This document shows, in pieces, positions 41,939 through 44,156 of a stretch of 64,000 nt of DNA. The notes under the pieces are model-generated. The model did not search any database. It saw only the letters and a list, made by a program, of their open reading frames with translations, and had not been told where the DNA came from. The stretch spans positions 1,665,159-1,729,158 of the forward strand of contig NZ_KE384547.1 in the NCBI RefSeq assembly GCF_000426625.1, in the 5' to 3' direction. Source of the stretch: Psychrilyobacter atlanticus DSM 19335. Its GTDB lineage: Bacteria > Fusobacteriota > Fusobacteriia > Fusobacteriales > Fusobacteriaceae. Position 1 is the stretch's first letter, and the number at the start of each line of letters is the position of its first letter. A program made the translations under genes and the position numbers.

Positions 41939-42493
41939 TTAGCTTTTCTTTGAAAAGCATCCATCTACATGATCATCTACTACTCCTACCGCCTGTAAGT
42001 ATGCATAGATGATTGTAGTTCCGATAAATTTAAACCCTCTTTTTTTCATATCTTTACTTATTATATCAGATAAATCAGTTTTTGCTGGTACTTCTTTTAT
42101 ATTTTTTACCCTGTTTACTATCTGATTTCCATCTGTAAAACTCCATAGATAATCATAAAAACTTCCCCATTCACCCTGTATCTCCATAAACTTAATTGCA
42201 TTGTTTATAGACGCTCTTATTTTTAATTTATTTCTTACTATCCCCTTATTCCCCATCAACTCTTCAAATTTTCCTTCTCCGTATTCAGCCACTATATTAT
42301 AATCAAAATCATCGTAGGCTTTTCTATAGTTTTCTCTTTTTTTCAATATGGTCAGCCAGTTTAGCCCTGCCTGGGCAGATTCTAAAACAAGGAATTCAAA
42401 TAAGATTTTGTCATCATAGACTACTTTACCCCACTCCTCATCATGATATTTTTCATAGAGTTCATCTCCCACACACCAATCACACCTTTTCAT
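41939..42493 (-). CDS. tag: DNA-3-methyladenine glycosylase I
   Basis: Tag removes 3-methyladenine from DNA. The 184 residues show the family start KRCDWC and HDEEWG, LESAQAGLNWLTILKKRENYRKAYDDFD, FIGTTIIYAYLQAVGVVDDHVDGC, including the zinc-binding cysteines and histidines at both ends. It is unrelated in fold to the AAG-type enzyme at 23.4 kb, so the window encodes two separate enzymes for alkylated purines. Confidence 0.95.
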   Translation of the reverse strand: MKRCDWCVGDELYEKYHDEEWGKVVYDDKILFEFLVLESAQAGLNWLTILKKRENYRKAYDDFDYNIVAEYGEGKFEELMGNKGIVRNKLKIRASINNAIKFMEIQGEWGSFYDYLWSFTDGNQIVNRVKNIKEVPAKTDLSDIISKDMKKRGFKFIGTTIIYAYLQAVGVVDDHVDGCFSKKS

Positions 42494-42558
42494 CTTATCC
42501 CCCTGTATACTATATAAAAATCAATATCTACAATAAATATAAACTCTGTAATTTAAAA

Positions 42559-42587
42559 AGGAAGCAGATATTTATCTGCTCCATTTT
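42559..42587. terminator. Terminator after the lipoprotein gene
   Basis: AGCAGAT and ATCTGCT pair around ATTT with flanking GGA/TCC and a T-run on the minus strand. It separates the lipoprotein from tag. Confidence 0.75.
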
Positions 42588-42590
42588 TAA

Positions 42591-43027
42591 CTACTTCTCA
42601 GCTGTCTTTTTATAACTTCCCTCTAAAGTCGCACCTCCAGAACAGAAAAAATAAAGTAGATCCCCATCTTTTTCCTTTTCCATGAAAACTTTTAAGATTC
42701 CATCTTCTAAATCAAATAAAATAACTTTCTCATTAAATATTGATTTTAAAGTATTACTCTCCACTATAATTCCCTCTCCATCAAAGGTACAGGTCGGCTT
42801 TTTTTTATCTGAACGAGATTTAATACTTATATAAACAGCATTATCATCTTTTTTAGTAATTAAAATATTTATCCAGTCATAACCATCTGAACGTTGATAA
42901 TAATCTTCAGAAACATATTTCCCTAAAAATTTATCTACACTTTTTTTTGTAATCGATCGTTTTCTGAGTTGCAGGCTGAAAACAAAAAAGGTATAAATAA
43001 AATAAATACAATGTAATTTAATCTCAT
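42591..43027 (-). CDS. Lipoprotein gene interrupted by an A8 frameshift
   Basis: An ATG at 43027, five bases after GAGAGGAG, opens a frame whose first 19 residues are a lipoprotein signal peptide (MRLNYIVFILF...FSAC, Cys19). That frame reaches TAG at 42935-42937 just after a run of eight As (T-run at 42941-42948). Stepping back one base in the run gives the next frame, SVDKFLGKYVSEDYY, which continues 116 residues to 42591. So the complete product would be about 145 residues. The codons CAA AAA AAA form a slippery heptamer (A AAA AAA). The mature protein is not recognised; it ends with a small beta-rich region (SGGATLEGSYKK). Sequencing error, slippage or phase variation could each explain the break. 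Confidence 0.7.
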
Positions 43028-43071
43028 ATGGTCTCCTCTCTATACAAACTCTCAATACTTACAATATTATC

Positions 43072-43890
43072 TTAGTCTGTTATTAAATCCATTTTTTCCA
43101 ATAACTTTTCCAGTCTATCGGTAATCATATCTAATTTATCCACAATATCAAACTCCTTCCTATGCAGATTTTCAAAAAATTCCCTTATATCCGCTTCCAT
43201 ATTTTCCGGAAGGCACTCCAGTTGTTCTCCAGTAATCTTCAATAATTTTTTCTCTCCAGGATGGAGTTTCATATTTACTGCGAAAATAATATCAAAATAA
43301 CTTTCAAAAAATGCACTTATCCTGTGGTTAACACTCACAAGATCTCCTCTTTTTAAAGCTTTTTTTATCTGGTTGGTATAAGCCGGAATGATCTTATTTA
43401 ACAGGGGAAAGTTTTTTGAAACTATATTTTTTTTCAATTGTTCCGGATAGTCAACATCAAACTTTTTTTGCAGTAGATTTAATTTACCATTTCTGTCATA
43501 GAGGATATCTGACTTTATAAGATTGCCCCAAAAGCATGTTGTATAACCTGTTGAGGCTGTGCACTTAATAACGATCTCCTCCAACATCCCTTCTATAAAT
43601 TCCACATCTCTATATACAATATCTACCTGGACATTGATACCTTTGAAAAACCCCTGATCTTCCTGCTCCCATGTTGTATTGTTTAATTCGGCATAATTAA
43701 AGTATTTGTCCGCTATCTTTTCTCTGAATTCCAGCGGAACTCCCCCTTTAGAATATATATACAAATCATAGTCTGAATCACTATCAAAATTAGGAGTAGT
43801 CCTAGACCCCGATAAAAGAATAGCCTCCACCGATTCACACTTTGAAAAATCATCCACTAACTCCAATAATATACCATCGTACCCATTCAT
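43072..43890 (-). CDS. Nucleotidyltransferase (DUF4037-like)
   Basis: A nucleotidyltransferase fold is seen near the N-terminus: AILLSGSRTTPNFDSDSDYDLYIY has the GS motif and the two catalytic aspartates. The remainder is helical and similar to DUF4037-type proteins. Such enzymes transfer nucleotides to drugs, proteins or RNA; the target here is unknown. The start at 43890 has AGGGGTG upstream; a GTG at 43899 would overlap it. It lies 44 bases before the lipoprotein gene on the same strand. Confidence 0.75.
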   Translation of the reverse strand: MNGYDGILLELVDDFSKCESVEAILLSGSRTTPNFDSDSDYDLYIYSKGGVPLEFREKIADKYFNYAELNNTTWEQEDQGFFKGINVQVDIVYRDVEFIEGMLEEIVIKCTASTGYTTCFWGNLIKSDILYDRNGKLNLLQKKFDVDYPEQLKKNIVSKNFPLLNKIIPAYTNQIKKALKRGDLVSVNHRISAFFESYFDIIFAVNMKLHPGEKKLLKITGEQLECLPENMEADIREFFENLHRKEFDIVDKLDMITDRLEKLLEKMDLITD

Positions 43891-43970
43891 ATTTTTCACC
43901 CCTTTTTATTACTTAAATATTTTTTCAATATCATTGACTTTCTATAATTATAGCCCCTGTTATAAAAATT

Positions 43971-44156
43971 TTAAAGGCTATTTGTTTTATTACTTAATAT
44001 ATCTATCATGTTTTTAGAGGAATCAATAAGTGTAATACTTTTAAACGAATCTATAAGATTAAAACTTATAAATCCGGTTCCACAGCCAAACTCCATAGCT
44101 CTACAATTTTTTGCATAATTATCAAAACTCATTATTATTTCTCCTATGATTTCCAT
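43971..44156 (-). pseudogene. Remnant of a class I SAM methyltransferase
   Basis: The 61-codon frame contains only the centre of a methyltransferase: RAMEFGCGTGFISFNL (motif I, SAM-binding) and ITLIDSSKNMIDILSNK. A normal member has about 200 residues, with sequence before the motif and a long tail after it; both are missing here. The start overlaps the upstream YoaP-like gene by 13 bases, which suggests a deletion joined them. Likely non-functional. Confidence 0.65.

Follow-up and report, generated by a model that had tools for sequence, protein, structure and literature searches.

Organization of the locus and the split frame

The stretch of DNA analysed here (the window; 64,000 nucleotides of Psychrilyobacter atlanticus DSM 19335, contig NZ_KE384547.1) carries a split lipoprotein gene on the minus strand, located between the genes for a nucleotidyltransferase-like protein and a 3-methyladenine glycosylase (Table 1). 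The gene opens with an ATG at 43027, and the frame set by this codon translates as MRLNYIVFILFIPFLFSACNSENDRLQKKV*, terminating in a TAG at positions 42937-42935. This frame contains a lipobox, FSAC, with Cys19, but in the window sequence the lipobox is out of frame with the conserved domain that follows. The switch region reads CGA TTA CAA AAA AAA GTG TAG, so that the stop codon stands one codon beyond a run of eight As, and the slippery heptamer A AAA AAA is present at the junction in the zero frame (codons AAA AAA). A sequence-only reading of this DNA had assigned the lipobox and the ribosome site to one frame and the domain to the next, which the window sequence bears out; its figure of 145 residues for the joined product is also correct, and a -1 shift at the A8 run would join both frames. 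Reinitiation is rejected, as the stretch from the lipoprotein ATG to the domain contains no in-frame ATG, GTG or TTG.

Table 1. Features of the split lipoprotein gene and its neighbours (window coordinates)
Feature	Position	Strand	Details
Upstream neighbour, nucleotidyltransferase-like protein with DUF4037	43072..43899	-	Ends 44 nt before the lipoprotein ATG
Shine-Dalgarno-like AGGAG	43033..43037	-	5 nt before the ATG; from sequence and conservation in the sister locus
Frame opened by the ATG and closed by TAG, 30 codons long; encodes signal peptide and lipobox FSAC (Cys19)	42935..43027	-	Frame continuous in the sister locus (L002)
A8 run, site of the frame change	42941..42948	-	Zero frame CAA AAA AAA GTG TAG
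Conserved domain, -1 frame, to TAG stop	42591..42940	-	DKFLGKYVSEDYYQRSDGYDW...SRSDKKKPTCTF...FCSGGATLEG
Second A8 run, in frame (DKKKP motif), internal control	42799..42806	-	Comparison with the sister locus
Intrinsic terminator 3' of the gene	42561..42582	-	9-pair stem, then CTTTTT; fold z -3.8
Downstream neighbour, 3-methyladenine DNA glycosylase	41939..42493	-	PF03352, 4.8e-77

An intact ortholog and the distribution of the gene

A congeneric sister genome (G007) harbors the same gene between the same neighbours, at about 87% DNA identity (L002:1432-1866). The two loci resemble each other in their neighbours, the ribosome site (the GGAGACCATATG stretch of this region is kept), the lipobox, the domain (80% protein identity) and the terminator, which is present in the sister with few changes. 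In contrast to the window gene, the ortholog consists of one unbroken frame of 145 codons (MKLNYVVFILFISFLFSACNSEKNRLPENGMDKFLG...), with lipobox and domain in frame and a linker that is devoid of the A8 run: at the corresponding position it reads CCA GAA AAT GGT ATG, without a long A run. The linker is ACAAAAAAAAGTGTAG in the window and GCCAGAAAATGGTATGG in the sister, and in the nucleotide alignment the window is one base shorter exactly in this linker, where the sister has CCAGAAAATGG. Because of the 80% identity to the sister-species protein and the matches to 46 relatives in other phyla (see below), the domain in the -1 frame is evidently genuine coding sequence, and both frames are, by sequence comparison, parts of one ancestral protein.

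The other six congeners are without the lipoprotein gene, although four of those genomes are merely 62-81% complete. In G002, which is 99% complete, a gap of about 55 bp that holds no gene separates the nucleotidyltransferase gene from the glycosylase gene (window site 42493-43072). The gene is thus dispensable, since this genome has both neighbours without it.

Distant relatives and architecture of the domain

Among 84,980 species genomes, 46 further relative loci (L021-L066) are found, nearly all in Bacteroidota and five in Psychrobacter. With the gene absent from G002 at this site and its other relatives belonging to these groups, horizontal acquisition by the common ancestor of the window species and the sister is suggested. 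Like the window gene, the relatives encode a lipobox followed by the domain with invariant SRxDKKKPTCT-like and CSGG-like motifs, at 30-48% identity. In contrast to the window gene, most carry a PliI-like C-terminal domain (PF16743), and none is frame-split: in 46 of 46, one uninterrupted ORF encodes both the lipobox cysteine and the domain. The split is therefore, on the sequences compared, private to this genome's sequence, as every relative is single-frame; with the sister gene intact and devoid of A8, it is not a conserved recoding arrangement.

At least three of the 46 relatives (L034, L044, L045) are also short, like the window gene. PliI follows the conserved domain, above the cut-off, in L021, L025, L035 and L054, and MliC (PF09864) precedes it at the N-terminal side in L028, L054, L056 and L058. 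An invariant pair of cysteines occurs in the conserved domain, both in the window (42591-42940) and in L021-L066.

Pfam and NCBIfam offer no credible family for the domain: the window domain has no Pfam match at all, and the intact sister protein has no credible one. The domain itself matches neither PliI nor MliC, both models matching separate domains of the longer relatives. PliI and MliC are bacterial inhibitor families directed against i- and c-type lysozyme. Because the domain is elsewhere fused to both, the lipoprotein may, by association, be an accessory one contributing to resistance to animal lysozymes, and the domain is a possible candidate for a new lysozyme-inhibitor-associated domain. 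AlphaFold2 (pLDDT 82) models the sister protein as a small beta structure that also includes helices. The model gives weak matches to lipocalin/FABP-like barrels (best Foldseek E 3.8e-3, TM about 0.4), and in a second structure comparison the best hit is to a domain of 1ei5 (Z 10.2; 78 residues, rmsd 2.1), others having Z of 7-9. A PDB profile search with the domain returned chance-level matches alone. Highly conserved, lacking a Pfam or NCBIfam model and fused to PliI and MliC in Bacteroidota and Psychrobacter, the domain is a more useful point of this locus than slippage.

Constraint on the domain

Between window and sister, differences in the domain are mainly silent (dN 0.066, dS 0.306, ratio 0.216), this ratio spanning both lineages so that the time after the break is not separable within it. 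Over 176 shared genes the median dN/dS is 0.06, which places the domain among the faster genes but clearly under constraint. Family columns conserved at 90% or more are kept in 25 of 29 cases in the window and in 24 of 29 in the sister. Extra damage in the window copy is not seen at the sites that differ between the two: the balance of 11 to 6 in mean BLOSUM favours the sister copy and is not significant. The out-of-frame domain is thus without measurable excess decay, which implies that the break is recent, that it is partly bypassed by slippage, or that it is a sequencing error. An intact true genome, or slippage that maintains the product, would leave the domain equally free of excess decay.

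Poly-A runs and frameshifts in the genome

Matches to A8 on both strands of the window number 46 against 39 expected, a count reached by 25 of 100 shuffles. Sense-strand runs of at least eight As occur in 65 of the 205 ORFs in 240 kb of this genome, and 211 kb of coding sequence holds 88 A8 runs and 162 in-frame A_AAA_AAA heptamers. The second A8 run of the lipoprotein gene lies in frame and causes no break in either species. By these counts, the A8 run where the frame changes is not remarkable. All 26 coding A/T8 runs that can be aligned with their flanks to the sister have equal length there, whereas outside ORFs the length differs in 15 of 91 runs of at least six; selection that avoids frameshifts is a contributor to this contrast.

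Over about 199 kb aligned to the sister, within a census covering 240 kb of the genome and one genome per species, the lipoprotein gene is the only shared gene with an internal uncompensated frameshift. Elsewhere in shared ORFs, non-triplet indels either are offset by others, add up to whole codons, lie at ORF ends or fall in poorly aligned ORFs. The frameshift was detected by the nucleotide census; the protein-level census is blind to this gene, the 30-residue stub being too short. The assembly is locally good.

Origin of the frame split

The frame split most likely arose as a recent and unexceptional indel in a homopolymer, or else it is a miscall. That it is a real, recent one-base frameshift mutation in an accessory lipoprotein gene has about an even chance of being correct. 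The presence of the gene would reflect either acquisition on the branch shared with the sister species or loss from the remaining congeners. Point substitutions in the variable linker, which separates the lipid-anchor cysteine from the folded domain, would have built a long A run, from which one base would then have been lost by ordinary replication slippage. A young break fits the mainly silent differences of the domain and the conserved columns it has kept, in number similar to those of the sister copy. The good local assembly favours a real mutation, and we infer from the sequence that the cells themselves lack the base and have lost most expression of the gene: the product of the sequenced strain would mostly be a 30-residue stub, leaving the lipoprotein largely off. 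Some lipoprotein could still be made, at a low level, through rare events of spontaneous slippage or through reversion. A sequencing or assembly error, in which the record lacks one base of the A run and the true gene is as unbroken as that of the sister, is a tentative but serious contender. The break falls exactly at a homopolymer, a typical site of error; the intact version would be an A9 run giving a 145-residue protein, exactly as long as that of the sister; the domain is under purifying constraint with no excess decay; and a single error per roughly 240 kb is credible even in a good long-read assembly. However, every comparable coding A/T8 run matches the length in the sister and no second frameshift of this kind accompanies it, although a lone young null allele is only slightly more plausible than a lone miscall in a homopolymer. 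Direct translation of the -1 frame from a TTG at 43055, which would yield a 154-residue protein without a lipobox, is very improbable: an open frame does extend from the TTG to 42591, but no ribosome site precedes the TTG, in contrast to the AGGAG before the ATG of the other frame, and in all relatives lipobox and domain share one frame.

The sequence-only reading was right in seeing a lipoprotein split at the A8 run, but its further proposal, that the run is a site of slippage or phase variation, is not supported by the relatives: the long A run is missing from the sister linker, no other relative is split, and coding A/T8 lengths are constant between the two species. That slippage or phase variation tunes the amount of lipoprotein, whether by transcriptional slippage, -1 ribosomal frameshifting at A_AAA_AAA or reversible changes in run length, is accordingly unlikely. 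In its favour, the -1 shift would join the frames just ahead of the zero-frame stop, the domain is still well conserved, and for Deinococcus and Nostoc IS elements there is a proposal of slippage at runs of eight As (PMC1088944). However, neither the split nor the slippery run is conserved in the sister or among the 46 relatives, selection against A-run slippage is evident from length nine in many bacterial genomes (PMC1088944), and in-frame A_AAA_AAA is common in the coding sequence. No Shine-Dalgarno-like or purine-rich stimulator is visible in the sequence 8-14 nt upstream of the run, and the fold downstream is weak: the first 71 nt reach -14.2 kcal/mol (z -1.7; 12 of 200 shuffles as good), forming a weak A-U hairpin, while the matching sister sequence gives -10.7 kcal/mol (z -0.3). 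The DNA pattern spanning the junction has no match in viral contigs. Like bacterial transcriptional slippage sites, such as the A9 run of Thermus dnaX and those of IS elements (PMC1088944), this locus places an A run at a frame junction; those runs are conserved among relatives or experimentally tested, whereas the run here is eight long and not conserved. A programmed role for slippage lacks its main support, namely conservation. The more specific proposal, that the A8 run acts as a low-efficiency slippage site or a reversible off switch for a lysozyme-resistance surface lipoprotein, new in this species and absent from the sister, is even less likely. As a slippage site the locus is probably unimportant, one more recent homopolymer frameshift or base-call error.

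A methyltransferase fragment upstream

At positions 43911-44155, about 245 bp are missing from the sister genome. At 43971-44156 (minus strand) this segment encodes 61 residues of a class I methyltransferase, with Pfam matches over roughly the initial 40 positions of the models. This fragment looks like a gene remnant.
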